From positions 1 through 20,345 of the forward strand of contig NEEC01000445.1 in assembly GCA_002189035.1 (NCBI GenBank): a stretch of 20,345 nucleotides of DNA, written 5' to 3'. Positions 1-20,345 of this stretch are shown in pieces. Made by a program: the position numbers and the translations under genes. Each line of letters opens with the position of its first letter. Position 1 is the first letter of the stretch. A model generated the notes under the pieces. The model saw nothing but the letters and a program-made list of their open reading frames with translations, did no database searches and was not told the DNA's origin. The stretch is from Utricularia gibba (Eukaryota; Streptophyta; Magnoliopsida; Lamiales; Lentibulariaceae).

Positions 1-1867
1 TTCCTTGAAAAACCATGTAAGCCCCCGAAAACCGAACGATAATAAATACATCACTTTATTTGTCGGGCTACAACTAACTCTCGCGCAAGCCAAACCTTAC
101 CTTTGTCCCGTTCCAGTGCACCCAAGACCGCCTCCTCAAGTATAAAGTAAGTTGTTGAAAAATCATGTGGGGTGCACGTGATATCGCAATTTAAACAAAT
201 GCATCATTTTTTTTAATCGATTTGCATCCGGTTGACCTCATGAGCCATACAGAATCGGGGTCAAGGACCAAGTTCCCAGCGAGACTGGCCGCCACAAAAC
301 GAGAAGCGGTTCCTTGAAAAACCATGTAGGAAGCCCCGAAAACCGAACGATAATAAATACATCACTTTATTTGCCGGGCTACAACTAACTCTCGCGCAAG
401 CCAAACCTTACCTTTGTCCCGTTCCAGTGCACCCAAGACCGCCTCCTCAAGTATAAAGTAAGTTGTTGAAAAAATCATGTGGGGTGCACGTGATATCGCA
501 ATTTAAACAAATGCATCATTTTTTTTTAATCGATTTGCATCGGTTGACCTCATGAGCCATACAGAATCGGGGTAAAGGACCAAGTTCCCAGCGAGACTGG
601 CCGCCACAAAACGAGAAGCGGTTCTTGAAAAACCATGTAGGCAGCCCCGAAAACCGAACGATAATAAATACATCACTTTTATTGCGGGCTATAACTAACT
701 CTCGGCGCAAGCCAAACCTTACCTTTGTCCCGTTCAGGTGCACCCAAGACCGCTCCTCAAGTATAAAGTAAGTTGTTGAAAAAATCATGTGGGGTGCACG
801 TGATATCGCAATTTAAACAAATGCATCATTTTTTTTAATCGATTTGCATCCGGTTGACCTCATGAGCCATACAGAATCGGGGTCAAGGACCAAGTTCCCA
901 GCGAGACTGGCCGCCACAAAACGAGAAGCGGTTCCTTGAAAAACCATGTAGGCAGCCCCCGAAAACCGAACGATAATAAATACATCACTTTATTTGCCGG
1001 GCTACAACTAACTCTCGGCGCAAGCCAAACCTTACCTTTGTCCCGTTCAGGTGCACCCCAAGACCGCCTCCTCAAGTATAAAGTAAGTTGTTGAAAAAAT
1101 CATGTGGGGTGCACGTGATATCGCAATTTAAACAAATGCATCATTTTTTTTAATCGATTTGCATCCGGTTGACCTCATGAGCCATACAGAATCGGGTCAA
1201 GGACCAAGTTCCCAGCGAGACTGGCCGCCACAAAACGAAGCGGTTCCTTGAAAAACCATGTAGGCAGCCCCCGAAAACCGAACGATAATAAATACATCAC
1301 TTTATTTGCCGGGCTACAACTAACTCTCGCGCAAGCCAAACCTTACCTTTGTCCCGTTCCAGTGCACCCCAAGACCGCCTCCTCAAGTATAAAGTAAGTT
1401 GTTGAAAAAATCATGTGGGGTGCACATGATATCGCAATTTAAACAAATGCATCATTTTTTTAATCGATTTGCATCCGGTTGACCTCATGAGCCATACAGA
1501 ATCGGGGTAAAGGACCAATTTCCCAGCGAGACTGGCCGCCACAAACGAGAAGCGGTTCCTTGAAAAACCATGTAGGCAGCCCCCGAAAACCGAACGATAA
1601 TAAATACATCACTTTATTGTGGGGCTACAACTAACTCTCGGCGCAAGCCAAACCTTACCTTTGTCCCGTTCAGGTGCACCCAAGACCGCCTCCTCAAGTA
1701 TAAAGTAAGTTGTTGAAAAAATCATGTGGGGTGCACGTGATATCGCAATTTAAACAAATGCATCATTTTTTTTAATCGATTTGCATCCGGTTGACCTCAT
1801 GAGCCATACAGAATCGGGGTCAAGGACCAAGTTCCCAGCGAGACTGGCGCCACAAAACGAGAAGCGG

Positions 1868-2023
1868 TTCCTTGAAAAACCATGTAGGCAGCCCCCGAAA
1901 ACCGAACGATAATAAATACATCACTTTATTTGTCGGGCTACAACTAACTCTCGGCGCAAGCCAAACCTTACCTTTGTCCCGTTCCAGTGCACCCCAAGAC
2001 CGCCTCCTCAAGTATAAAGTAAG
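1868..2023. repeat. First half-monomer (half A, ~156 bp) of an ancestral dimer
   Basis: Half A begins TTCCTTGAAAAACCATGTAG and its counterpart in half B begins TTGTTGAAAAAATCATGTGG, about 155 bp downstream. Further collinear matches are AATAAATACATCAC against AACAAATGCATCAT (offset 156), AGCCAAAC against AGCCATAC (offset 158), GTTCCAGTG against GTTCCCAGCG (offset about 165) and CCGCC against CCGCC (offset 163). Order is preserved, which supports descent from a duplicated monomer of about 156 bp followed by divergence. Half A carries most of the substitutions and indels that distinguish units: the C-run, GTCGGG, CGGCGC and CAG(G/C)TGC sites. The exact boundary is approximate. Confidence 0.6.
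1911..1933 (+). other. AATAAA with downstream T/GT-rich stretch, present in most units
   Basis: AATAAA (1911-1916) is followed about 8 bp later by CTTTATTTGT (1924-1933). This resembles a eukaryotic polyadenylation hexamer, although the T-rich part is closer than is usual for a downstream element. The same arrangement recurs in most units; units 25, 26, 30, 32, 39, 44, 46, 50 and 62 alter it. In an AT-rich repeat it may be chance. It is given as a possible 3'-end signal for plus-strand satellite transcripts only. Confidence 0.2.
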
Positions 2024-2024
2024 T
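2013..2024 (+). other. TATAAAG overlapping a GTAAGT splice-donor-like match
   Basis: TATAAAGTAAGT contains a TATA-like heptamer and AAAGTAAGT, which differs from the consensus eukaryotic 5' splice donor at one place. It lies in the near-invariant core and is unchanged in every unit I checked. No downstream exon-like reading frame or 3' splice site could be supported, so neither promoter nor splice function is claimed. Confidence 0.15.
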
Positions 2025-2044
2025 TGTTGAAAAAATCATGTGGG

Positions 2045-2058
2045 GTGCACGTGATATC
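2045..2058. promoter_or_regulatory. Overlapping palindromes GTGCAC/CACGTG/GATATC; CACGTG is an E-box
   Basis: CACGTG is the canonical E-box/G-box bound by bHLH and bZIP factors in animals, fungi and plants. Of 65 units, 41 keep CACGTG, 23 have CACATG and one (unit 33) is unreadable because of a two-base loss. The A form destroys the CpG and the palindrome. The site sits in otherwise nearly constant sequence. The match is seen directly; binding is not, and a six-base match alone is weak. Confidence 0.25.
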
Positions 2059-2079
2059 GCAATTTAAACAAATGCATCA

Positions 2080-2101
2080 TTTTTTTTTAATCGATTTGCA
2101 T
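2080..2101. promoter_or_regulatory. T-run followed by AATCGATT and octamer-like ATTTGCAT
   Basis: Runs of six to nine T (usually eight) are followed by AATCGATTTGCAT. ATTTGCAT is the reverse complement of the POU-factor octamer ATGCAAAT. It is intact in nearly all units; unit 28 (TTTGCGG) and unit 12 (TTTCCATCC near 3609) lose it. A rigid T-tract next to a GC-rich part can affect nucleosome placement. Regulatory use is speculative. Confidence 0.2.
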
Positions 2102-2183
2102 CCGGTTGACCTCATGAGCCATACAGAATCGGGGTCAAGGACCAAGTTCCCAGCGAGACTGGCCGCCACAAAACGAGAAGCGG

Positions 2184-2447
2184 TTCCTTGAAAAACCATG
2201 TAGGCAGCCCCCGAAAACCGAACGATAATAAATACATCACTTTATTTGCCGGGCTACAACTAACTCTCGGCGCAAGCCAAACCTTACCTTTGTCCCGTTC
2301 CAGTGCACCCAAGACCGCCTCCTCAAGTATAAAGTAAGTTGTTGAAAAAATCATGTGGGTGCACGTGATATCGCAATTTAAACAAATGCATCATTTTTTT
2401 TAATCGATTTGCATCCGGTTGACCTCATGCAGGAAAAACCAGAGCGG
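2184..2447. repeat. Deleted monomer (unit 8, 264 bp) with 13-bp filler
   Basis: The unit is normal up to CCTCATG (ends 2429). The expected stretch of about 62 bp, from AGCCATACAG to AACGAGA, is missing and replaced by CAGGAAAAACCAG (2430-2442), after which AGCGGTTCC resumes. The filler resembles the nearby TGAAAAACCATG found about 20 bp downstream, which suggests a templated insertion during repair of a break or a replication slip. This is the only large internal deletion among the 65 units, and it has not spread to other units. Confidence 0.9.
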
Positions 2448-3070
2448 TTCCTTGAAAAACCATGTAGGCAGCCCCGAAAACCGAACGATAATAAATACAT
2501 CACTTTATTTGTCGGGCTACAACTAACTCTCGGCGCAAGCCAAACCTTACCTTTGTCCCGTTCCAGTGCACCCCAAGACCGCCTCCTCAAGTATAAAGTA
2601 AGTTGTTGAAAAAATCATGTGGGGTGCACATGATATCGCAATTTAAACAAATGCATCATTTTTTTTAATCGATTTGCATCCGGTTGACCTCATGAGCCAT
2701 ACAGAATCGGGGTCAAGGACCAAGTTCCCAGCGAGACTGGCCGCCACAAAACGAAGCGGTTCCTTGAAAAACCATGTAGGCAGCCCCGAAACCGAACGAT
2801 AATAAATACATCACTTTATTTGTCGGGCTACAACTAACTCTCGCGCAAGCCAAACCTTACCTTTGTCCCGTTCCAGCTGCACCCAAGACCGCCTCCTCAA
2901 GTATAAAGTAAGTTGTTGAAAAATCATGTGGGGTGCACATGATATCGCAATTTAAACAAATGCATCATTTTTTTTAATCGATTTGCATTCGGTTGACCTC
3001 ATGAGCCATACAGAATCGGGGTAAAGGACCAAGTTCCCAGCGAGACTGGCCGCCACAAAACGAGAAGCGG

Positions 3071-6000
3071 TTCCTTGAAAAACCATGTAGGCAGCCCCGA
3101 AAACCGAACGATAATAAATACATCACTTTATTTGTGGGCTACAACTAACTCTCGGCGCAAGCCAAACCTTACCTTTGTCCCGTTCAGGTGCACCCCAAGA
3201 CCGCCTCCTCAAGTATAAAGTAAGTTGTTGAAAAAATCATGTGGGTGCACGTGATATCGCAATTTAAACAAATGCATCATTTTTTTTAATCGATTTGCAT
3301 CCGGTTGACCTCATGACCATACAGAATCGGGGTCAAGGACCAAGTTCCCAGCGAGACTGGCCGCCACAAAACGAGAAGCGGTTCCTTGAAAAACCATGTA
3401 GGCAGCCCCCGAAAACCGAACGATAATAAATACATCACTTTATTTGCCGGGCTACAACTAACTCTCGCGCAAGCCAAACCTTACCTTTGTCCCGTTCCAG
3501 CTGCACCCCAAGACCGCCTCCTCAAGTATAAAGTAAGTTGTTGAAAAAATCATGTGGGGTGCACATGATATCGCAATTTAAACAAATGCATCATTTTTTT
3601 TAATCGATTTCCATCCGGTTGACCTCATGAGCCATACAGAATCGGGGTCAAGGACCAAGTTCCCAGCGAGACTGGCCGCCACAAAACGAGAAGCGGTTCC
3701 TTGAAAAACCATGTAGGCAGCCCCCGAAAACCGAACGATAATAAATACATCACTTTATTTGTCGGGCTACAACTAACTCTCGGCGCAAGCCAAACCTTAC
3801 CTTTGTCCGTTCAGGTGCACCCAAGACCGCCTCCTCAAGTATAAAGTAAGTTGTTGAAAAAAATCATGTGGGTGCACGTGATATCGCAATTTAAACAAAT
3901 GCATCATTTTTTTTAATCGATTTGCATCCGGTTGACCTCATGAGCCATACAGAATCGGGGTCAAGGACCAAGTTCCCAGCGAGACTGGCCGCCACAAAAC
4001 GAGAAGCGGTTCCTTGAAAAACCATGTAGGCAGCCCCCGAAAACCGAACGATAATAAATACATCACTTTATTTGCCGGGCTACAACTAACTCTCGCGCAA
4101 GCCAAACCTTACCTTTGTCCCGTTCCAGCTGCACCCCAAGACCGCCTCCTCAAGTATAAAGTAAGTTGTTGAAAAAATCATGTGGGGTGCACATGATATC
4201 GCAATTTAAACAAATGCATCATTTTTTTTAATCGATTTGCATCCGGTTGACCTCATGAGCCATACAGAATCGGGGTCAAGGACCAAGTTCCCAGCGAGAC
4301 TGGCCGCCACAAAACGAGAAGCGGTTCCTTGAAAAACCATGTAGGCAGCCCCGAAAACCGAACGATAATAAATACATCACTTTATTTGTCGGGCTACAAC
4401 TAACTCTCGCGCAAGCCAAACCTTACCTTTGTCCCGTTCCAGCTGCACCCCAAGACCGCCTCCTCAAGTATAAAGTAAGTTGTTGAAAAAATCATGTGGG
4501 GTGCACATGATATCGCAATTTAAACAAATGCATCATTTTTTTTTAATCGATTTGCATCCGGTTGACCTCATGAGCCATACAGAATCGGGGGTAAGGACCA
4601 ATTTCCCAGCGAGACTGGCCGCCACAAAACGAGAAGCGGTTCCTTGAAAAACCATGTAGGCAGCCCCGAAAACCGAACGATATAAATACATCACTTTATT
4701 TGTCGGGCTACAACTAACTCTCGGCGCAAGCCAAACCTTACCTTTGTCCCGTTCAGGTGCACCCCAAGACCGCCTCCCCAAGTATAAAGTAAGTTGTTGA
4801 AAAAATCATGTGGGGTGCACGTGATATCGCAATTTAAACAAATGCATCATTTTTTTTAATCGATTTGCATCCGGTTGACCTCATGAGCCATACAGAATCG
4901 GGGTCAAGGACCAAGTTCCCAGCGAGACTGGCCGCCACAAAACGAGAAGCGGTTCCTTGAAAAACCATGTAGGCAGCCCCCGAAAACCGAACGATAATAA
5001 ATACATCACTTTATTTGCCGGGCTACAACTAACTCTCGCGCAAGCCAAACCTTACCTTTGTCCCGTTCCAGCTGCACCCCAAGACCGCCTCCTCAAGTAT
5101 AAAGTAAGTTGTTGAAAAAATCATGTGGGGTGCACATGATATCGCAATTTAAACAAATGCATCATTTTTTTTAATCGATTTGCATCCGGTTGACCTCATG
5201 AGCCATACAGAATCGGGGTCAAGGACCAAGTTCCCAGCGAGACTGGCCGCCACAAAACGAGAAGCGGTTCCTTGAAAAACCATGTAGGCAGCCCCGAAAA
5301 CCGAACGATAATAAATACATCACTTTATTTGTCGGGCTACAACTAACTCTCGGCGCAAGCCAAACCTTACCTTTGTCCCGTTCCAGCTGCACCCCAAGAC
5401 CGCCTCCTCAAGTATAAAGTAAGTTGTTGAAAAAATCATGTGGGGTGCACATGATATCGCAATTTAAACAAATGCATCATTTTTTTTAATCGATTTGCAT
5501 CCGGTTGACCTCATGAGCCATACAGAATCGGGGTCAAGGACCAAGTTCCCAGCGAGACTGGCCGCCACAAAACGAGAAGCGGTTCCTTGAAAAACCATGT
5601 AGGCAGCCCCGAAAACCGAACGATAATAAATACATCACTTTATTTGTCGGGCTACAACTAACTCTCGGCGCAAGCCAAACCTTACCTTTGTCCCGTTCAG
5701 GTGCACCCCAAGACCGCCTCCTCAAGTATAAAGTAAGTTGTTGAAAAAATCATGTGGGTGCACGTGATATCGCAATTTAAACAAATGCATCATTTTTTTT
5801 AATCGATTTGCATCCGGTTGACCTCATGAGCCATACAGAATCGGGGTCAAGGACCAAGTTCCCAGCGAGACTGGCCGCCACAAAACGAGAAGCGGTTCCT
5901 TGAAAAACCATGTAGGCAGCCCCGAAAACCGAACGATAATAAATACATCACTTTATTTGTCGGGCTACAACTAACTCTCGCGCAAGCCAAACCTTACCTT

Positions 6001-6208
6001 TGTCCCGTTCCAGTGCACCCCAAGACCGCCTCCTCAAGTATAAAGTAAGTTGTTGAAAAAATCATGTGGGGTGCACGTGATATCGCAATTTAAACAAATG
6101 CATCATTTTTTTTAATCGATTTGCATCCGGTTGACCTCATGAGCCATACAGAATCGGGGTCAAGGACCAAGTTCCCAGCGAGACTGGCCGCCACAAAACG
6201 AGAAGCGG
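3071..6208. repeat. Higher-order repeat copy I (units 11-20, ~3.14 kb)
   Basis: Ten monomers whose CACRTG states read G A G A A G A A G G (G for CACGTG, A for CACATG). GCCGGG is in units 12, 14 and 17; TAAGG/TAAAGG-type is in unit 15 (GGGGGTAAGG near 4588); CAGGTGC is in units 11, 13, 16 and 19; CCAGCTGC is in units 12, 14, 15, 17 and 18. Unit 16 has GATATAAAT in place of GATAATAAAT. The same states recur at the same ordinal positions in the next two blocks of ten. Block phase is arbitrary. Confidence 0.8.
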
Positions 6209-9200
6209 TTCCTTGAAAAACCATGTAGGCAGCCCCCGAAAACCGAACGATAATAAATACATCACTTTATTTGTCGGGCTACAACTAACTCTCGGCGCAA
6301 GCCAAACCTTACCTTTGTCCCGTTCAGTGCACCCAAGACCGCCTCCTCAAGTATAAAGTAAGTTGTTGAAAAAATCATGTGGGGTGCACGTGATATCGCA
6401 ATTTAAACAAATGCATCATTTTTTTTAATCGATTTGCATCCGGTTGACCTCATGAGCCATACAGAATCGGGGTCAAGGACCAAGTTCCCAGCGAGACTGG
6501 CCGCCACAAAACGAGAAGCGTTCCTTGAAAAACCATGTAGGCAGCCCCCGAAAACCGAACGATAATAAATACATCACTTTATTTGCCGGGCTACAACTAA
6601 CTCTCGCGCAAGCCAAACCTTACCTTTGTCCCGTTCCAGTGCACCCCAAGACCGCCTCCTCAAGTATAAAGTAAGTTGTTGAAAAAATCATGTGGGTGCA
6701 CATGATATCGCAATTTAAACAAATGCATCATTTTTTTTAATCGATTTGCATCCGGTTGACCTCATGAGCCATACAGAATCGGGGTCAAGGACCAAGTTCC
6801 CAGCGAGACTGGCCGCCACAAAACGAGAAGCGGTTCCTTGAAAAACCATGTAGGCAGCCCCGAAAACCGAACGATAATAAATACATCACTTTATTGTCGG
6901 GCTACAACTAACTCTCGGCGCAAGCCAAACCTTACCTTTGTCCCGTTCAGGTGCACCCCAAGACCGCCTCCTCAAGTATAAAGTAAGTTGTTGAAAAAAA
7001 TCATGTGGGTGCACGTGATATCGCAATTTAAACAAATGCATCATTTTTTTTAATCGATTTGCATCCGGTTGACCTCATGAGCCATACAGAATCGGGGTCA
7101 AGACCAAGTTCCCAGCGAGACTGGCCGCCACAAAACGAGAAGCGGTTCCTTGAAAAACCATGTAGGCAGCCCCCGAAAACCGAACGATAATAAATACATC
7201 ACTTTATTTGCCGGGCTACAACTAACTCTCGCGCAAGCCAAACCTTACCTTTGTCCCGTTCCAGCTGCACCCCAAGACCGCCTCCTCAAGTATAAAGTAA
7301 GTTGTTGAAAAAATCATGTGGGGTGCACATGATATCGCAATTTAAACAAATGCATCATTTTTTTTAATCGATTTGCATCCGGTTGACCTCATGAGCCATA
7401 CAGAATCGGGGTCAAGGACCAAGTTCCCAGCGAGACTGGCCGCCACAAAACGAGAAGCGGTTCCTTGAAAAACCATGTAGGCAGCCCCGAAAACCGAACG
7501 ATAAAAATACATCACTTTATTGTCGGGCTACAACTAACTCTCGCGCAAGCCAAACCTTACCTTTGTCCCGTTCCAGCTGCACCCAAGACCGCCTCCTCAA
7601 GTATAAAGTAAGTTGTTGAAAAATCATGTGGGGTGCACATGATATCGCAATTTAAACAAATGCATCATTTTTTTTAATCGATTTGCATCCGGTTGACCTC
7701 ATGAGCCATACAGAATCGGGGTAAAGGACCAAGTTCCCAGCGAGACTGGCCGCCACAAAACGAGAAGCGGTTCCTTGAAAAACCATGTAGGCAGCCCCGA
7801 AAACCGAACGATATAAATACATCACTTTATTTGGCGGGCTACAACTAACTCTCGGCGCAAGCCAAACCTTACCTTTGTCCCGTTCAGGTGCACCCCAAGA
7901 CCGCCTCCTCAAGTATAAAGTAAGTTGTTGAAAAAATCATGTGGGGTGCACGTGATATCGCAATTTAAACAAATGCATCATTTTTTTTAATCGATTTGCA
8001 TCCGGTTGACCTCATGAGCCATACAGAATCGGGGTCAAGGACCAAGTTCCCAGCGAGACTGGCCGCCACAAAACGAGAAGCGGTTCCTTGAAAAACCATG
8101 TAGGCAGCCCCGAAAACCGAACGATAATAAATACATCACTTTATTTGTCGGGCTACAACTAACTCTCGCGCAAGCCAAACCTTACCTTTGTCCCGTTCCA
8201 GTGCACCCAAGACCGCCTCCTCAAGTATAAAGTAAGTTGTTGAAAAAATCATGTGGGGTGCACGTGATATCGCAATTTAAACAAATGCATCATTTTTTTT
8301 AATCGATTTGCATCCGGTTGACCTCATGAGCCATACAGAATCGGGGTCAAGGACCAAGTTCCCAGCGAGACTGGCCGCCACAAAACGAGAAGCGGTTCCT
8401 TGAAAAACCATGTAGGCAGCCCCGAAAACCGAACGATAATAAAACATCACTTTATTTGTCGGGCTACAACTAACTCTCGCGCAAGCCAAACCTTACCTTT
8501 GTCCCGTTCCAGCTGCACCCAAGACCGCCTCCTCAAGTATAAAGTAAGTTGTTGAAAAAATCATGTGGGGTGCACATGATATCGCAATTTAAACAAATGC
8601 ATCATTTTTTTTAATCGATTTGCGGTTGACCTCATGAGCCATACAGAATCGGGGTCAAGGACCAAGTTCCCAGCGAGACTGGCCGCCACAAAACGAGAAG
8701 CGGTTCCTTGAAAAACCATGTAGGCAGCCCCGAAAACCGAACGATAATAAATACATCACTTTATTTGTCGGGCTACAACTAACTCTCGGCGCAAGCCAAA
8801 CCTTACCTTTGTCCCGTTCAGGTGCACCCAAGACCGCCTCCTCAAGTATAAAGTAAGTTGTTGAAAAAATCATGTGGGGTGCACGTGATATCGCAATTTA
8901 AACAAATGCATCATTTTTTTTAATCGATTTGCATCCGGTTGACCTCATGAGCCATACAGAATCGGGGTCAAGGACCAAGTTCCCAGCGAGACTGGCCGCC
9001 ACAAAACGAGAAGCGGTTCCTTGAAAAACCATGTAGGCAGCCCCCGAAAACCGAACGATAAAAATACATCACTTTATTTGTCGGGCTACAACTAACTCTC
9101 GGCAAGCCAAACCTTACCTTTGTCCCGTTCCAGCTGCACCCCAAGACCGCCTCCTCAAGTATAAAGTAAGTTGTTGAAAAAATCATGTGGGGTGCACATG

Positions 9201-9329
9201 ATATCGCAATTTAAACAAATGCATCATTTTTTTTAATCGATTTGCATTCGGTTGACCTCATGAGCCATACAGAATCGGGGTCAAGGACCAAGTTCCCAGC
9301 GAGACTGGCCGCCACAAAACGAGAAGCGG
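6209..9329. repeat. Higher-order repeat copy II (units 21-30, ~3.12 kb)
   Basis: CACRTG states read G A G A A G G A G A, differing from copy I at positions 7 and 10. GCCGGG is in units 22 and 24 only, TAAAGG in unit 25 only, and CAGGTGC in units 23, 26 and 29. Unit 26 repeats the GATATAAAT variant of unit 16. Unit 27 looks converted to the other class, carrying CCAGTGC and CACGTG where copies I and III have CCAGCTGC and CACATG. Unit 28 has a short loss (TTTGCGGTTG near 8621). Confidence 0.8.
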
Positions 9330-12300
9330 TTCCTTGAAAAACCATGTAGGCAGCCCCCGAAAACCGAACGATAATAAATACATCACTTTATTTGTCGGGC
9401 TACAACTAACTCTCGGCGCAAGCCAAACCTTACCTTTGTCCCGTTCAGGTGCACCCAAGACCGCCTCCTCAAGTATAAAGTAAGTTGTTGAAAAAATCAT
9501 GTGGGGTGCACGTGATATCGCAATTTAAACAAATGCATCATTTTTTTTAATCGATTTGCATCCGGTTGACCTCATGAGCCATACAGAATCGGGGTCAAGG
9601 ACCAAGTTCCCAGCGAGACTGGCCGCCACAAAACGAGAAGCGGTTCCTTGAAAAACCATGTAGGCAGCCCCCGAAAAACCGAACGATAAAAATACATCAC
9701 TTTATTTTGCCGGGCTACAACTAACTCTCGCGCAAGCCAAACCTTACCTTTGTCCCGTTCCAGCTGCACCCCAAGACCGCCTCCTCAAGTATAAAGTAAG
9801 TTGTTGAAAAAATCATGTGGGGTGCACATGATATCGCAATTTAAACAAATGCATCATTTTTTTTAATCGATTTGCATCCGGTTGACCTCATGAGCCATAC
9901 AGAATCGGGGTCAAGGACCAATTTCCCAGCGAGACTGGCCGCCACAAAACGAGAAGCGGTTCCTTGAAAAACCATGTAGGCAGCCCCGAAAACCGAACGA
10001 TAATAAATACATCACTTTATTTGTGGGGCTACAACTAACTCTCGGCGCAAGCCAAACCTTACCTTTGTCCCGTTCAAGTGCACCCCAAGACCGCCTCCTC
10101 AAGTATAAAGTAAGTTGTTGAAAAAAATCATGTGGGGTGCACGATATCGCAATTTAAACAAATGCATCATTTTTTTTAATCGATTTGCATCCGGTTGACC
10201 TCATGAGCCATACAGAATCGGGGTCAAGGACCAAGTTCCCAGCGAGACTGGCCGCCACAAAACGAGAAGCGGTTCCTTGAAAAACCATGTAGGCAGCCCC
10301 CGAAAACCGAACGATAATAAATACATCACTTTATTTGCCGGGCTACAACTAACTCTCGCGCAAGCCAAACCTTACCTTTGTCCCGTTCCAGCTGCACCCC
10401 AAGACCGCCTCCTCAAGTATAAAGTAAGTTGTTGAAAAAATCATGTGGGGTGCACATGATATCGCAATTTAAACAAATGCATCATTTTTTTAATCGATTT
10501 GCATCCGGTTGACCTCATGAGCCATACAGAATCGGGGTCAAGGACCAAGTTCCCAGCGAGACTGGCCGCCACAAAACGAGAAGCGGTTCCTTGAAAAACC
10601 ATGTAGGCAGCCCCGAAAACCGAACGATAATAAATACATCACTTTATTTGTCGGGCTACAACTAACTCTCGCGCAAGCCAAACCTTACCTTTGTCCCGTT
10701 CCAGTGCACCCAAGACCGCCTCCTCAAGTATAAAGTAAGTTGTTGAAAAAATCATGTGGGGTGCACATGATATCGCAATTTAAACAAATGCATCATTTTT
10801 TTTAATCGATTTGCATTCGGTTGACCTCATGAGCCATACAGAATCGGGTAAAGGACCAAGTTCCCAGCGAGACTGGCCGCCACAAAACGAGAAGCGGTTC
10901 CTTGAAAAACCATGTAGGCAGCCCCGAAAACCGAACGATAATAAATACATCACTTTATTTGTGGGCTACAACTAACTCTCGGCGCAAGCCAAACCTTACC
11001 TTTGTCCCGTTCAGGTGCACCCCAAGACCGCCTCCTCAAGTATAAAGTAAGTTGTTGAAAAAAATCATGTGGGGTGCACGTGATATCGCAATTTAAACAA
11101 ATGCATCATTTTTTTTAATCGATTTGCATCCGGTTGACCTCATGAGCCATACAGAATCGGGGTCAAGGACCAAGTTCCCAGCGAGACTGGCCGCCACAAA
11201 ACGAGAAGCGGTTCCTTGAAAAACCATGTAGGCAGCCCCCGAAAACCGAACGATAATAAATACATCACTTTATTTGTCGGGCTACAACTAACTCTCGCGC
11301 AAGCCAAACCTTACCTTTGTCCGTTCCAGCTGCACCCCAAGACCGCCTCCTCAAGTATAAAGTAAGTTGTTGAAAAATCATGTGGGGTGCACATGATATC
11401 GCAATTTAAACAAATGCATCATTTTTTTTAATCGATTTGCATCCGGTTGACCTCATGAGCCATACAGAATCGGGGTCAAGGACCAAGTTCCCAGCGAGAC
11501 TGGCCGCCACAAAACGAGAAGCGGTTCCTTGAAAAACCATGTAGGCAGCCCCGAAAACCGAACGATAATAAATACATCACTTTATTTGTCGGGCTACAAC
11601 TAACTCTCGGCGCAAGCCAAACCTTACCTTTGTCCCGTTCCAGCTGCACCCAAGACCGCCTCCTCAAGTATAAAGTAAGTTGTTGAAAAAATCATGTGGG
11701 GTGCACATGATATCGCAATTTAAACAAATGCATCATTTTTTTTAATCGATTTGCATCCGGTTGACCTCATGAGCCATACAAAATCGGGGTCAAGGACCAA
11801 GTTCCCAGCGAGACTGGCCGCCACAAAACGAGAAGCGGTTCCTTGAAAAACCATGTAGGCAGCCCCGAAAACCGAACGATATAAATACATCACTTTATTT
11901 GTCGGGCTACAACTAACTCTCGGCGCAAGCCAAACCTTACCTTTGTCCCGTTCCAGGTGCACCCCAAGACCGCCTCCTCAAGTATAAAGTAAGTTGTTGA
12001 AAAAAATCATGTGGGGTGCACGTGATATCGCAATTTAAACAAATGCATCATTTTTTTTAATCGATTTGCATCCGGTTGACCTCATGAGCCATACAGAATC
12101 GGGGTCAAGGACCAAGTTCCCAGCGAGACTGGCCGCCACAAAACGAGAAGCGGTTCCTTGAAAAACCATGTAGGCAGCCCCGAAAACCGAACGATAATAA
12201 ATACATCACTTTATTTGTCGGGCTACAACTAACTCTCGCGCAAGCCAAACCTTACCTTTGTCCCGTTCCAGCTGCACCCCAAGACCGCCTCCTCAAGTAT

Positions 12301-12467
12301 AAAGTAAGTTGTTGAAAAAATCATGTGGGGTGCACATGATATCGCAATTTAAACAAATGCATCATTTTTTTTAATCGATTTGCATCCGGTTGACCTCATG
12401 AGCCATACAGAATCGGGGTCAAGGACCAAGTTCCCAGCGAGACTGGCCGCCACAAAACGAGAAGCGG
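9330..12467. repeat. Higher-order repeat copy III (units 31-40, ~3.14 kb)
   Basis: CACRTG states read G A (G) A A G A A G A. Unit 33 has lost two bases there, so its state cannot be read. GCCGGG is in units 32 and 34 only, TAAAGG in unit 35 only; CAGGTGC is in units 31 and 36 (CCAGGTGC in 39); CCAGCTGC is in units 32, 34, 37, 38 and 40. Agreement with copies I and II at independent sites is the basis for calling a ten-monomer higher-order repeat rather than a simple monomeric array. Confidence 0.8.
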
Positions 12468-15287
12468 TTCCTTGAAAAACCATGTAGGCAGCCCCCGAAA
12501 ACCGAACGATAATAAATACATCACTTTATTTGCCGGGCTACAACTAACTCTCGCGCAAGCCAAACCTTACCTTTGTCCCGTTCCAGTGCACCCCAAGACC
12601 GCCTCCTCAAGTATAAAGTAAGTTGTTGAAAAAATCATGTGGGTGCACATGATATCGCAATTTAAACAAATGCATCATTTTTTTTAATCGATTTGCATCC
12701 GGTTGACCTCATGAGCCATACAGAATCGGGTCAAGGACCAAGTTCCCAGCGAGACTGGCCGCCACAAAACGAGAAGCGGTTCCTTGAAAAACCATGTAGG
12801 CAGCCCCCGAAAACCGAACGATAATAAATACATCACTTTATTTGTCGGGCTACAACTAACTCTCGGCGCAAGCCAAACCTTACCTTTGTCCCGTTCAGCT
12901 GCACCCAAGACCGCCTCCTCAAGTATAAAGTAAGTTGTTGAAAAAATCATGTGGGGTGCACGTGATATCGCAATTTAAACAAATGCATCATTTTTTTTAA
13001 TCGATTTGCATCCGGTTGACCTCATGAGCCATACAGAATCGGGGTCAAGGACCAAGTTCCCAGCGAGACTGGCCGCCACAAAACGAGAAGCGGTTCCTTG
13101 AAAAACCATGTAGGCAGCCCCCGAAAACCGAACGATAATAAATACATCACTTTATTTGTCGGGCTACAACTAACTCTCGGCGCAAGCCAAACCTTACCTT
13201 GTCCCGTTCCAGTGCACCCCAAGACCGCCTCCTCAAGTATAAAGTAAGTTGTTGAAAAAATCATGTGGGGTGCACGTGATATCGCAATTTAAACAAATGC
13301 ATCATTTTTTTTAATCGATTTGCATCCGGTTGACCTCATGAGCCATACAGAATCGGGGTCAAAACCAAGTTCCCAGCGAGACTGGCCGCCACAAAACGAG
13401 AAGCGGTTCCTTGAAAAACCATGTAGGCAGCCCCCGAAAACCGAACGATAAAAAATACATCACTTTATTTGTCGGGCTACAACTAACTCTCGGCGCAAGC
13501 CAAACCTTACCTTTGTCCCGTTCCAGCTGCACCCCAAGACCGCCTCCTCAAGTATAAAGTAAGTTGTTGAAAAAATCATGTGGGGTGCACGTGATATCGC
13601 AATTTAAACAAATGCATCATTTTTTTTAATCGATTTGCATCCGGTTGACCTCATGAGCCATACAGAATCGGGTCAAGGACCAAGTTCCCAGCGAGACTGG
13701 CCGCCACAAAACGAGAAGCGGTTCCTTGAAAAACCATGTAGGCAGCCCCCGAAAACCGAACGATAATAAATACATCACTTTATTTGTCGGGCTACAACTA
13801 ACTCTCGCGCAAGCCAAACCTTACCTTTGTCCCGTTCCAGCTGCACCCAAGACCGCCTCCTCAAGTATAAAGTAAGTTGTTGAAAAAATCATGTGGGTGC
13901 ACATGATATCGCAATTTAAACAAATGCATCATTTTTTTTAATCGATTTGCATCCGGTTGACCTCATGAGCCATACAGAATCGGGGTCAAGGACCAAGTTC
14001 CCAGCGAGACTGGCCGCCACAAAACGAGAAGCGGTTCCTTGAAAAACCATGTAGGCAGCCCCGAAAACCGAACGATATAAATACATCACTTTATTTGGGG
14101 CTACAACTAACTCTCGGCGCAAGCCAAACCTTACCTTTGTCCCGTTCAGGTGCACCCCAAGACCGCCTCCTCAAGTATAAAGTAAGTTGTTGAAAAAAAT
14201 CATGTGGGGTGCACGTGATATCGCAATTTAAACAAATGCATCATTTTTTTTAATCGATTTGCATCCGGTTGACCTCATGAGCCATACAGAATCGGGGTCA
14301 AGGACCAAGTTCCCAGCGAGACTGGCCGCCACAAAACGAGAAGCGGTTCCTTGAAAAACCATGTAGGCAGCCCCGAAAACCGAACGATAATAAATACATC
14401 ACTTTATTTGCCGGGCTACAACTAACTCTCGGCGCAAGCCAAACCTTACCTTTGTCCCGTTCAGTGCACCCAAGACCGCCTCCTCAAGTATAAAGTAAGT
14501 TGTTGAAAAAAATCATGTGGGGTGCACATGATATCGCAATTTAAACAAATGCATCATTTTTTTTAATCGATTTGCATCCGGTTGACCTCATGAGCCATAC
14601 AGAATCGGGGTCAAGGACCAAGTTCCCAGCGAGACTGGCCGCCACAAAACGAGAAGCGGTTCCTTGAAAAACCATGTAGGCAGCCCCGAAAACCGAACGA
14701 TAATAAATACATCACTTTATTTGTCGGGCTACAACTAACTCTCGGCGCAAGCCAAACCTTACCTTTGTCCCGTTCCAGCTGCACCCCAAGACCGCCTCCT
14801 CAAGTATAAAGTAAGTTGTTGAAAAAATCATGGGGTGCACGTGATATCGCAATTTAAACAAATGCATCATTTTTTTTAATCGATTTGCATCCGGTTGACC
14901 TCATGAGCCATACAGAATCGGGGTCAAGGACCAAGTTCCCAGCGAGACTGGCGCCACAAAACGAGAAGCGGTTCCTTGAAAAACCATGTAGGCAGCCCCC
15001 GAAAACCGAACGATAATAAATACATCACTTTATTTGTCGGGCTACAACTAACTCTCGGCGCAAGCCAAACCTTACCTTTGTCCCGTTCCAGCTGCACCCC
15101 AAGACCGCCTCCTCAAGTATAAAGTAAGTTGTTGAAAAAATCATGTGGGGTGCACATGATATCGCAATTTAAACAAATGCATCATTTTTTTTTAATCGAT
15201 TTGCATTCGGTTGACCTCATGAGCCATAAAAATCGGGGTAAAGGACCAATTTCCCAGCGAGACTGGCCGCCACAAAACGAGAAGCGG
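12468..15287. repeat. Array domain 3: scrambled units 41-49
   Basis: The same variant alleles occur as in the higher-order domain, but the ten-unit register is lost: CACRTG states are A G G G A G A G A. Unit 41 matches unit 22 at most diagnostic sites (GCCGGG, CGCGC, CCAGTGC, GTGGGTGCACATG), and units 45-46 resemble an A-B pair with the GATATAAAT variant in unit 46. Units 44 and 48 combine CCAGCTGC with CACGTG, a rare combination suggesting recombination between monomer classes. No gene is present. Confidence 0.7.
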
Positions 15288-15585
15288 TTCCTTGAAAAAC
15301 CATGTAGGTAGTCCCCGAAAACGAACGATATCAAATTTATCACTTTATTTGTGGGCTATAACTAACCAAACCTTACCTTTGTCCCGTTCCAGTGCACCCC
15401 AAGACCGCCTCCCAAGTATAAAGTAAGTTGTTGAAAAAATCATGTGGGGTGCACGTGATATCGCAATTTAAACAAATGCATCATTTTTTTAATCGATTTG
15501 CATCCGGTTGACCTCATGAGCCATACAGAATCGGGGTCAAGGACCAAGTTCCCAGCGAGACTGGCCGCCACAAAACGAGAAGCGG
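15288..15585. repeat. Diverged monomer (unit 50, 298 bp) at a domain boundary
   Basis: This is the most diverged unit in the window. It reads GTAGGTAGTCCCCG where others read GTAGGCAGCCCC, then has ACGAACGATATCAAATTTATC (15321-15341 region) in place of the usual ATAATAAATACATC, followed by GTGGGCTATAAC. Thirteen bases, TCTCGGCGCAAGC, are missing between ACTAAC and CAAACC near 15366. It also has CCTCCCAAG in place of CCTCCTCAAG. The preceding unit 49 is unusual too (GCATTCGG, CATAAAAATCGG, TAAAGG, CAATTT). Together they mark the change from mixed CACATG/CACGTG units to uniform CACGTG units. Confidence 0.85.
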
Positions 15586-18500
15586 TTCCTTGAAAAACCA
15601 TGTAGGCAGCCCCCGAAAACCGAACGATAATAAATACATCACTTTATTTGTCGGGCTACAACTAACTCTCGGCGCAAGCCAAACCTTACCTTTGTCCCGT
15701 TCCAGTGCACCCCAAGACGCCTCCTCAAGTATAAAGTAAGTTGTTGAAAAAATCATGTGGGGTGCACGTGATATCGCAATTTAAACAAATGCATCATTTT
15801 TTTTAATCGATTTGCATCCGGTTGACCTCATGAGCCATACAGAATCGGGGTCAAGGACCAAGTTCCCAGCGAGACTGGCCGCCACAAAACGAGAAGCGGT
15901 TCCTTGAAAAACCATGTAGGCAGCCCCCGAAAACCGAACGATAATAAATACATCACTTTATTTGCCGGCTACAACTAACTCTCCGCAAGCCAAACCTTAC
16001 CTTTGTCCCGTTCCAAGCTGCACCCCAAGACCGCCTCCTCAAGTATAAAGTAAGTTGTTGAAAAATCATGTGGGGTGCACGTGATATCGCAATTTAAACA
16101 AATGCATCATTTTTTTAATCGATTTGCATCCGGTTGACCTCATGAGCCATACAGAATCGGGGTCAAGGACAAGTTCCCAGCGAGACTGGCCGCCACAAAA
16201 CGAGAAGCGGTTCCTTGAAAAACCATGTAGGCAGCCCCCGAAAACCGAACGATAATAAATACATCACTTTATTTGGGCTAAACTAACTCTGGCGCAAGCC
16301 AAACCTTACCTTTGTCCCGTTCCAGTGCACCCAAAGACCGCCTCCTCAAGTATAAAGTAAGTTGTTGAAAAAATCATGTGGGGTGCACGTGATATCGCAA
16401 TTTAAACAAATGCATCATTTTTTTTAATCGATTTGCATCCGGTTGACCTCATGAGCCATACAGAATCGGGGTCAAGGACCAAGTTCCCAGCGAGACTGGC
16501 CGCCACAAACGAGAAGCGGTTCCTTGAAAAACCATGTAGGCAGCCCCCGAAAACCGAACGATAATAAATACATCACTTTATTTGCGGGCTACAACTAACT
16601 CTCGGCGCAAGCCAAACCTTACCTTTGTCCCGTTCCAGTGCACCCCAAGACCGCCTCCTCAAGTATAAAGTAAGTTGTTGAAAAAAATCATGTGGGGTGC
16701 ACGTGATATCGCAATTTAAACAAATGCATCATTTTTTTTAATCGATTTGCATCCGGTTGACCTCATGAGCCATACAGAATCGGGGTCAAGGACCAAGTTC
16801 CCAGCGAGACTGGCCGCCACAAAACGAGAAGCGGTTCCTTGAAAAACCATGTAGGCAGCCCCGAAAACCGAACGATAATAAATACATCACTTTATTTGTC
16901 GGGCTACAACTAACTCTCGGCGCAAGCCAAACCTTACCTTTGTCCCGTTCTGCACCCAAGACCGCCTCCTCAAGTATAAAGTAAGTTGTTGAAAAAATCA
17001 TGTGGGGTGCACGTGATATCGCAATTTAAACAAATGCATCATTTTTTTAATCGATTTGCATCCGGTTGACCTCATGAGCCATACAGAATCGGGGTCAAGG
17101 ACCAAGTTCCCAGCGAGACTGGCCGCCACAAAACGAGAAGCGGTTCCTTGAAAAACCATGTAGGCAGCCCCGAAAACCGAACGATAATAAATACATCACT
17201 TTATTTGCGGGCTACAACTAACTCTCGGCGCAAGCCAAACCTTACCTTTGTCCCGTTCCAGCTGCACCCCAAGACCGCCTCCTCAAGTATAAAGTAAGTT
17301 GTTGAAAAAATCATGTGGGGTGCACGTGATATCGCAATTTAAACAAATGCATCATTTTTTTTAATCGATTTGCATCCGGTTGACCTCATGAGCCATACAG
17401 AATCGGGGTCAAGGACCAAGTTCCCAGCGAGACTGGCCGCCACAAAACGAGAAGCGGTTCCTTGAAAAACCATGTAGGCAGCCCCCGAAAACCGAACGAT
17501 AATAAATACATCACTTTATTTGCCGGGCTACAACTAACTCTCGGCGCAAGCCAAACCTTACCTTTGTCCCGTTCCAGTGCACCCAAAACCGCCTCTCAAG
17601 TATAAAGTAAGTTGTTGAAAAAATCATGTGGGGTGCACGTGATATCGCAATTTAAACAAATGCATCATTTTTTTTAATCGATTTGCATCCGGTTGACCTC
17701 ATGAGCCATACAGAATCGGGGTCAAGGACCAAGTTCCCAGCGAGACTGGCCGCCACAAAACGAGAAGCGGTTCCTTGAAAAACCATGTAGGCAGCCCCCG
17801 AAAACCGAACGATAATAAATACATCACTTTATTTGTCGGGCTACAACTAACTCTCGGCGCAAGCCAAACCTTACCTTTGTCCCGTTCAGGTGCACCCCAA
17901 GACCGCCTCCTCAAGTATAAAGTAAGTTGTTGAAAAAATCATGTGGGGTGCACGTGATATCGCAATTTAAACAAATGCATCATTTTTTTTAATCGATTTG
18001 CATCCGGTTGACCTCATGAGCCATACAGAATCGGGGTCAAGGACCAAGTTCCCAGCGAGACTGGCCGCCACAAAACGAGAAGCGGTTCCTTGAAAAACCA
18101 TGTAGGCAGCCCCGAAAACCGAACGATAATAAATACATCACTTTATTTGCGGGCTAACTAACTCTCGGCGCAAGCCAACCTTACCTTTGTCCCGTTCAAG
18201 TGCACCCCAAGACCGCCTCCTCAAGTATAAAGTAAGTTGTTGAAAAAATCATGTGGGGTGCACGTGATATCGCAATTTAAACAAATGCATCATTTTTTTT
18301 AATCGATTTGCATCCGGTTGACCTCATGAGCCATACAGAATCGGGGTCAAGGACCAAGTTCCCAGCGAGACTGGCCGCCACAAAACGAGAAGCGGTTCCT
18401 TGAAAAACCATGTAGGCAGCCCCCGAAAACCGAACGATAATAAATACATCACTTTATTTGTCGGGCTACAACTAACTCTCGGCGCAAGCCAAACCTTACC

Positions 18501-20273
18501 TTTGTCCCGTTCAGGTGCACCCCAAGACGCCTCCTCAAGTATAAAGTAAGTTGTTGAAAAAATCATGTGGGGTGCACGTGATATCGCAATTTAAACAAAT
18601 GCATCATTTTTTTTAATCGATTTGCATCCGGTTGACCTCATGAGCCATACAGAATCGGGGTCAAGGACCAAGTTCCCAGCGAGACTGGCCGCCACAAAAC
18701 GAGAAGCGGTTCCTTGAAAAACCATGTAGGCAGCCCCCGAAAACCGAACGATAATAAATACATCACTTTATTTGTCGGGCTACAACTAACTCTCGGCGCA
18801 AGCCAAACCTTACCTTTGTCCCGTTCCAGTGCACCCAAGACCGCCTCCTCAAGTATAAAGTAAGTTGTTGAAAAAATCATGTGGGGTGCACGTGATATCG
18901 CAATTTAAACAAATGCATCATTTTTTTTAATCGATTTGCATCCGGTTGACCTCATGAGCCATACAGAATCGGGGTCAAGGACCAAGTTCCAGCGAGACTG
19001 GCCGCCACAAAACGAGAAGCGGTTCCTTGAAAAACCATGTAGGCAGCCCCCGAAAACCGAACGATAAAAATACATCACTTTATTTGCGGGCTACAACTAA
19101 CTCTCGGCGCAAGCCAAACCTTACCTTTGTCCCGTTCGAGGTGCACCCCAAGACGCCTCCTCAAGTATAAAGTAAGTTGTTGAAAAAATCATGTGGGGTG
19201 CACGTGATATCGCAATTTAAACAAATGCATCATTTTTTTTAATCGATTTGCATCCGGTTGACCTCATGAGCCATACAGAATCGGGGTCAAGGACAAGTTC
19301 CCAGCGAGACTGGCCGCCACAAAACGAGAAGCGGTTCCTTGAAAAACCATGTAGGCAGCCCCGAAAACCGAACGATAATAAATACATCACTTTATTTGCC
19401 GGGCTACAACTAACTCTCGGCGCAAGCCAAACCTTACCTTTGTCCCGTTCCAGTGCACCCCAAGACCGCCTCCTCAAGTATAAAGTAAGTTGTTGAAAAA
19501 ATCATGTGGGGTGCACGTGATATCGCAATTTAAACAAATGCATCATTTTTTTTAATCGATTTGCATCCGGTTGACCTCATGAGCCATACAGAATCGGGGT
19601 CAAGGACCAAGTTCCAGCGAGACTGGCCGCCACAAAACGAGAAGCGGTTCCTTGAAAAACCATGTAGGCAGCCCCCGAAAACCGAACGATAATAAATACA
19701 TCACTTTATTTGTCGGGCTACAACTAACTCTCGGCGCAAGCCAAACCTTACCTTTGTCCTGTTCCAGGTGCACCCTAAGACGCCTCTCAAGTATAAAGTA
19801 AGTTGTTGAAAAAATCATGTGGGGTGCACGTGATATCGCAATTTAAACAAATGCATCATTTTTTTTAATCGATTTGCATCCGGTTGACCTCATGAGCCAT
19901 ACAGAATCGGGGTCAAGGACCAAGTTCCCAGCGAGACTGGCCGCCACAAACGAGAAGCGGTTCCTTGAAAAACCATGTAGGCAGCCCCCGAAAACCGAAC
20001 GATAATAAATACATCACTTTATTTGTCGGGCTACAACTAACTCTCGGCGCAAGCCAAACCTTACCTTTGTCCCGTTCAGTGCACCCCAAGACGCCTCCTC
20101 AAGTATAAAGTAAGTTGTTGAAAAAATCATGTGGGGTGCACGTGATATCGCAATTTAAACAAATGCATCATTTTTTTTAATCGATTTGCATCCGGTTGAC
20201 CTCATGAGCCATACAGAATCGGGGTCAAGGACCAAGTTCCCAGCGAGACTGGCCGCCACAAAACGAGAAGCGG
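15586..20273. repeat. Array domain 4: uniform CACGTG units 51-65
   Basis: All fifteen units carry CACGTG, and TAAAGG and GCATTCGG are absent. Private variants appear here: AAGACGCC in place of AAGACCGCC (units 51, 60, 62, 64, 65), GTTCCAGCG in place of GTTCCCAGCG (units 61, 63), and TTTGCGGGC (units 54, 56, 59, 62; elsewhere only a near form in unit 3). Sharing of private variants implies local homogenisation by unequal exchange or gene conversion, separate from the higher-order domain. Many of the private variants are one-base losses in C-runs, so read or consensus error must be excluded. Confidence 0.75.
15900..16519. repeat. Indel-rich monomers (units 52 and 53)
   Basis: Within 120 bp of each unit start there are clustered small changes. 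Unit 52 has TTTGCCGGCT, CTCTCCGCAAG and TTCCAAGCTGC, plus a seven-T run and AAGGACAAG. Unit 53 has TTTGGGCTAAACTA, CTCTGGCGC and ACCCAAAGACC, plus ACAAACGAG. No other adjacent pair has this many private indels in half A. Relaxed homogenisation near a domain edge or poor consensus quality would both explain this. Confidence 0.6.
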
Positions 20274-20345
20274 TTCCTTGAAAAACCATGTAGGCAGCCC
20301 CGAAAACCGAACGATAATAAATACATCACTTTATTTGTGGGCTAC
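20274..20345. repeat. Partial terminal monomer (unit 66, 72 bp)
   Basis: The window ends inside half A of the 66th unit, at TTTGTGGGCTAC. There is no sign of an array edge, so the satellite very probably continues past the window. The left end likewise begins within satellite: base 1 happens to coincide with the unit start chosen here. Confidence 0.95.

Follow-up and report, generated by a model that had tools for sequence, protein, structure and literature searches.

Organization of the Array

The window, that is, the whole stretch of 20,345 bp analyzed here, is the complete contig C259 of the Utricularia gibba assembly (100.09 Mb in 516 contigs, labeled here by C and a number). Tandem Repeats Finder and wrap-around alignment to a 315-bp consensus concordantly revealed satellite DNA throughout, organized as one head-to-tail array with a unit of about 313 bp. 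The array comprises 65 units, followed by 72 bp of unit 66, with unit sizes of 298–316 bp except for unit 8 (264 bp). Screening of the window against Rfam resulted in 0 matches at the gathering score, so that rDNA (5S/45S spacer) or another known RNA repeat was ruled out.

By wrap-around alignment, units 11, 21, 31, and 41 were found to start at positions 3071, 6209, 9330, and 12468. The three ten-unit copies (units 11–40) that the original prediction had placed at 3071–12467 were thus confirmed in position and size (Table 1). The ten-unit register is local: it ends at the block edges, and units 1–10, 41–50, and 51–65 deviate from it.

Table 1. Features of the satellite array of contig C259.
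Feature	Position	Strand	Organization	Basis
Whole contig	1..20345	+	313-bp satellite array, 65 units + 72 bp	Repeat finding and alignment
Units 1–10	1..3070	+	Satellite outside the 10-unit register; unit 8 (2184–2447) lacks about 50 bp	
10-unit block, copy 1 (units 11–20)	3071..6208	+	Y X Y X X Y X X Y Z, 3138 bp	
Half-unit A, example	3071..3224	+	Half of one 313-bp unit (consensus 156 bp), homologous to half B	
Half-unit B, example	3225..3381	+	Consensus 159 bp, bears the CACRTG site	
10-unit block, copy 2 (units 21–30)	6209..9329	+	Y X Y X X Y Z X Y X, 3121 bp	
10-unit block, copy 3 (units 31–40)	9330..12467	+	Y X ? X X Y X X Z X, 3138 bp	
Units 41–50	12468..15585	+	Mixed X/Y/Z, register gone; unit 50 lacks about 17 bp	
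Units 51–66	15586..20345	+	Without CACATG (X); Z/Y stretch, no 10-unit signal	

The 313-bp unit is itself a diverged dimer of a repeat of about 156 bp, which was revealed when a segmentation with loose anchors cut most units into halves. Alignment of the two halves (156 and 159 bp) showed 99 identities in 143 ungapped columns and a score of 52.5, whereas 500 shuffles had a mean of 9.4 and did not exceed 39.5. Both halves carry the box TTGAAAAAYCATGTRGG (with one additional A in half B) at a distance of about 155 bp, e.g., at 3075–3092 and 3228–3245, and its half-A form is among the best-kept 14-base words in contigs C7, C8, C17, C203, and C298. As far as sequence can tell, this could be a candidate protein-binding box.

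Unit Types and Diagnostic Sites

Most units belong to one of three types, namely X (GC, CCAGC, CACATG), Y (GGC, CAGG, CACGTG), and Z (GGC, CCAG, CACGTG), and units within the contig differ by about 2%. The majority order of the ten-unit block is Y X Y X X Y X X Y X. As predicted from the letters alone, the CACRTG states of the three copies were identical in columns 1–6, 8, and 9, differed in columns 7 and 10, and were unreadable in unit 33. Two further sites likewise kept their predicted columns, with GCCGGG in columns 2 and 4 of all three copies (plus an extra one in unit 17) and TAAAGG or TAAGG in column 5 of all three. For CAGGTGC, the predicted columns 3, 6, and 9 were recovered (with CAAG in unit 33), but column 1, where the motif occurs in copies 1 and 3 and as a near form in copy 2, had been omitted. 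Unit 39 (copy 3) was assigned to type Z by the scoring rule, yet contains CAGGTGC. The sites had been put forward as independent, which was upheld in part: CACRTG, GG/G, and CCAGC/CAGG are linked as the X and Y types, while the sites taken together are only partly one signal. Because of this linkage, a plain tally of the sites as independent evidence was dropped.

Outside the block, CACATG was found in 0 of the last 15 units (15586–20345) compared to 20 of the 40 preceding ones (units 11–50), so that the composition of the array switches abruptly.

Identity by Lag within the Ten-Unit Block

In units 11–40, the 20 pairs at lag 10 had a mean of 4.70 differences and the 10 pairs at lag 20 a mean of 4.40, versus 6.18–8.68 at lags 1–9 and 11–19, lag 10 being the minimum among lags 1–19; lags 23 and 25 gave 5.57 and 5.60, from just 7 and 5 pairs. 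The predicted excess of identity at lag 10 over lags 1–9 and 11 was thus observed. With homopolymer indels excluded, the values were 2.90 (lag 10) and 2.40 (lag 20) versus 3.94–6.21 (lags 1–9 and 11–19). Among 20,000 random orders of the units, 0 attained the observed lag-10 value, and when the shuffle was free to use any lag from 1 to 20, p was 0.004, or 0.0055 without homopolymer indels (4,000 shuffles each). Whole blocks of 3.1 kb aligned in register differed by 10, 8, and 10 substitutions versus 15–30 at the 24 other offsets tried. In absolute terms, this excess is small, with a block identity of 98.5–98.7% in register versus 97.3–98.3% out of register.

The lag-10 signal is modest and derives in large part from a single linked contrast between X and Y units. 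For CACRTG alone, the agreement at lag 10 gave p = 0.001, or p = 0.016 with any lag from 2 to 15 allowed. After shuffling of whole units within CACRTG classes, the lag-10 value of 2.90 compared to a null mean of 3.56 (p = 0.014), and after removal of the linked sites the lag-10 excess was left at p = 0.057. The latter value would suit a chance or short-range explanation, in which X/Y alternation and a rhythm of two to three units produce the lag-10 match without copying of a ten-unit block. The same holds for lags 3, 8, 13, and 18, which are likewise lowered in units 11–40, for the long run at lag 3 under a permissive threshold (see below), and for the block itself, which resembles nested Y X X triplets. 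However, when the CACRTG string was modeled by Markov chains of orders 2 and 3, about 0.5% of runs attained the observed lag-10 agreement, and a second contig repeats the order in the same phase (see below), so that we consider this explanation quite unlikely. Copying of the ten-unit block as a whole is preferred.

In the accessible part of the TRASH publication (PMC10199239), higher-order repeats are blocks of equal unit number with highly similar units at the same position, and the default is at least three consecutive unit pairs with at most five differences each. We applied these rules with our own alignment and distances, not with the TRASH program itself. Units at the same position of the C259 block are more alike than units at other offsets, with contig C261 as a replicate. 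With raw differences and default settings, 11 of 20 lag-10 pairs passed with a longest run of 3, and lags 1, 2, 3, 4, 6, and 8 matched or exceeded this run; lag 10 was not singled out. Without homopolymer indels, 17 of 20 lag-10 pairs passed with a run of 7, while the run at lag 3 was 9. With the threshold tightened to at most three differences, again without homopolymer indels, lag 10 led all lags from 1 to 19 (15/20, longest run 6); the next best share was 11/22 at lag 8, and lag 20 had 8/10.

A Second Contig with the Ten-Unit Order

A search for the exact X-type unit resulted in 100 matches in the assembly, located on 14 contigs of 14.7–43.6 kb, with 17 of them in C259. Contig C261 (27,173 bp) revealed three ten-unit stretches from 17792 to 26806, nearly reaching the contig end. 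Their CACRTG states (GAGAAGAAGA, GAGAAGAAGA, and GGGAAGAAGA; one column-9 state was taken from the alignment instead of the regular expression) match the majority order of C259 in 29 of 30 positions, in the same phase, which argues against a mere short-range rhythm. Distances between units of the two contigs had minima at offsets −17, −7, 3, and 13, ten units apart. With 40 of the 44 units of the C261 part, the distance was 5.96 differences in phase versus 7.78 out of phase, and 0 of 400 permutations with free phase were as low. GCCGGG was present in column 2 (3/3) and column 4 (2/3) of the C261 stretches and also in column 10 (3/3). TAAAGG was found in column 5 of one of the three stretches, with five more A states elsewhere, contrary to a full identity of the blocks with those of C259.

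The short length of C259 and its entirely satellite nature, together with frequent homopolymer indels, would also be compatible with an assembly artefact, in which a false in-register repeat was built from noisy reads or from a single read segment used several times. In addition, U. gibba is listed in PMC5793159 as an HGAP assembly of PacBio subreads with a mean of 10.4 kb, a length close to that of the three copies together. Against this, 8–10 substitutions separate the copies from each other, and in columns 7 and 10 whole units are of different types, so that the copies are not one reused segment. Furthermore, C261 has the order of C259, and neither the column-7 change of C259 copy 2 nor the column-10 change of copy 1 appears in any C261 copy, so that its stretches would be further copies and not one stretch assembled twice. 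An artefact is thus highly improbable. Based on the order in three copies of C259 and three stretches of C261, block-wise amplification, as proposed in the original prediction, is the best reading compared to spread unit by unit.

A template test for the ten-unit order was positive for C261 (20/20, shuffle maximum 18 in 200 shuffles) and for C259, where the template had been defined (18/20, shuffle maximum 17). Among nine further contigs or parts thereof, none surpassed the shuffles, while C297, C299, and C300 equaled the shuffle maximum. These comprised parts of C203 (20 of 27 kb), C260 (10 of 43.6 kb), C296 (30 of 33.2 kb), C298 (20 of 23.6 kb), C300 (10 of 14.7 kb), C301 (10 of 17.9 kb), and C204 (10 of 17.4 kb) as well as C297 and C299 as a whole; C7, C8, C17, C10, and C11 were left out of this test. 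The idea that the ten-unit order is the general state of the satellite was therefore rejected, since only C259 and C261 were positive among those tested.

Further Orders in the Same Satellite

Other contigs displayed other block sizes. The first 10 kb each of C7 and C17 showed a two-unit order of about 626 bp, with median differences of 46 (C7) and 47 (C17) at lag 1 versus 16 and 9.5 at lag 2, and this two-unit repeat is a clearer case of a higher-order repeat than the ten-unit block of C259. The first 10 kb of C204 revealed a three-unit order, in which X Z Z recurs through about 14 units, with 9.04 differences at lag 3 versus 13.4 at lag 1 and 12.6 at lag 2 (pairs with at least 40 differences excluded). 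Altogether, block copying occurs at several scales within the U. gibba satellite. A minimum unit distance at lag 7 in C10 gives a hint of a possible seven-unit order.

Abundance and Genomic Placement

Two words of the unit, one of 17 and one of 14 bases, were counted 7,156 and 6,398 times, respectively, in the assembly. Assuming one 17-base word per unit, the satellite is estimated at about 2.2 Mb, though contigs may be redundant. All 29 stretches examined (with overlap in two cases) consisted of satellite to 96.6–100%, each on one strand, and the tails of C10 and C11 were satellite as well, again on one strand each. In the piece of C260, a stretch of 214 bp (9450–9663) inside the array had no satellite match.

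Neither exact word is present in C1–C6, as the first 100 matches of each, listed by contig order, start at C7; this concerns exact words, diverged copies aside. A word search with three mismatches gave 7,020 matches, of which the 100 listed were all exact, so that it is uninformative on diverged copies in C1–C6.

As a sample of contig ends, we used 20 of 27 contigs with a protein-kinase match (20 starts and 18 ends) and the ends of C1 and C2, resulting in 40 pieces of 250 bp, 39 of which were readable (the start of C98 is N). Satellite made up three of these 39 pieces, located at the ends of C213 and C402 and at the start of C414. C213 (3.70 Mb) carries telomere repeats from base 1 and diverged satellite at the opposite end. 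In a search with its terminal piece, in which 40 of 1,731 candidates were scored, nine of the matches listed lie on C213 itself between 3,612,356 and 3,704,653, and none of the 77 listed in total are on C1–C6. From these spaced matches, the last 92 kb of C213 appear to be continuous satellite.

The occurrence of satellite at contig ends and the telomere-to-satellite layout of C213 suggest a (peri)centromeric place. Judged by its sequence, this one contig would look like a chromosome arm ending in a putative (peri)centromeric array, and most likely the arrays form putative (peri)centromeric heterochromatin where the assembly of chromosomes breaks at the satellite. Alternatively, the satellite might be subtelomeric or form heterochromatic knobs without a link to centromeres. 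This would agree with the fact that the two exact words were not listed on C1–C6, and hence are not on every chromosome in that form, and with C402 and C414, whose opposite ends lacked telomere words in the 250 bp inspected. However, C213 spans from a telomere to satellite at its far end, and satellite was found in 0 of the 12 end pieces with at least six telomere words (250 bp being too short to show a subtelomere). We regard this alternative as rather doubtful, though of appreciable weight, and favor a (peri)centromeric place.

Plant telomere repeats were found at both ends of C3 and of C4, while C1 and C2 had no telomere words in their last 250 bp. The sizes of C1, C2, C13, C69, C409, C505, C507, and C515 are all divisible by 2,500 bp without remainder, so that some contigs may be cut. 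C515 (267.5 kb, perhaps mitochondrial) harbors COX1 (185150–185950) with the two contiguous cysteines that are a hallmark of bladderworts. According to the accessible part of PMC11688529, these cysteines are common to all Utricularia species, and in Genlisea they are kept in section Recurvatae only.

Discussion

Taken together, we read the window as part of the major satellite of U. gibba, built of dimers of a ~156-bp repeat, in which a ten-unit block was copied as a whole and whose arrays are putatively (peri)centromeric, and assign this reading a probability of roughly 0.77. Within it, the C259 block represents a genuine higher-order repeat in an early phase.

Dimeric satellites of two nucleosome-length halves are a known kind in plants. 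The C259 unit, with its diverged but homologous halves of 156 and 159 bp, resembles these, and the U. gibba satellite goes beyond them by extra levels, namely pairs of about 626 bp (C7/C17), three units (C204), and ten units (C259/C261). In human alpha-satellite higher-order repeats, monomers within a block are strongly diverged while the blocks are near-identical. The C259 block is similar in that a multi-unit block is copied in tandem and in register. Thus, the likeness to alpha satellite drawn in the original prediction stands for the manner of copying, but not for the composition, as the units in the block are about 98% alike and the supposed 313-bp monomer is itself a dimer. The strong divergence of monomers typical of alpha satellite is absent from the ten-unit block, whose units differ by about 2%, and the likeness is one of organization. 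It does not extend to the homogenized, chromosome-wide arrays of human alpha satellite. The ~626-bp pair of C7 and C17 is nearer to the alpha-satellite form, with 46–47 versus 9.5–16 differences.

In the Arabidopsis satellite CEN178, block copies are recognized by few variants per unit pair, and block sizes vary along the arrays. The C259 array is comparable to CEN178 higher-order repeats as handled by TRASH (accessible part of PMC10199239), being a plant satellite with near-identical units. Differences are that its unit is a 313-bp dimer and that lag 10 does not stand out under the TRASH default with raw differences; the likeness is one by description.

As to its origin, a ~156-bp repeat was doubled to a dimer of about 313 bp, and this dimer serves as the present unit. 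The ten-unit block may then have been copied whole by unequal exchange, by gene conversion between sister arrays, or by excision and rolling-circle reinsertion of multi-unit circles, and repetition of such a ten-unit step would yield the observed blocks. Since the block seems to be nested (Y X X repeated), it has probably grown from smaller blocks; the nested groups suggest earlier three-unit steps, consistent with the three-unit order of C204.

Block-wise copying of satellites is already well known in other species; what is new is its occurrence in U. gibba and the mix of block sizes. Among the papers listed in searches of the open literature, none showed a described satellite or higher-order repeat of U. 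gibba. Even a genome as small as this one bears satellite arrays of about 2 Mb, as estimated from word counts, with multi-unit copying at several block sizes. At about 2% unit divergence, the early-stage ten-unit block is a useful case for how higher-order repeats begin.

The putative centromeres of U. gibba are described in the accessible part of PMC8333044 as being without satellite repeats. The arrays do not contradict this statement for the assembled chromosomes, but show a large satellite elsewhere in the genome. Since the arrays lie outside C1–C6 (as judged by exact words) and some of them at ends of chromosome-arm contigs, the statement may apply just to fully assembled chromosomes. A more far-reaching reading, which we put forward as speculative and consider unlikely, is that U. 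gibba has two kinds of centromeres, satellite-poor ones (e.g., on C3 and C4) and others with satellite arrays in which two-, three-, and ten-unit orders compete. If true, one of the smallest plant genomes would display a satellite takeover of centromeres that is only partly completed.
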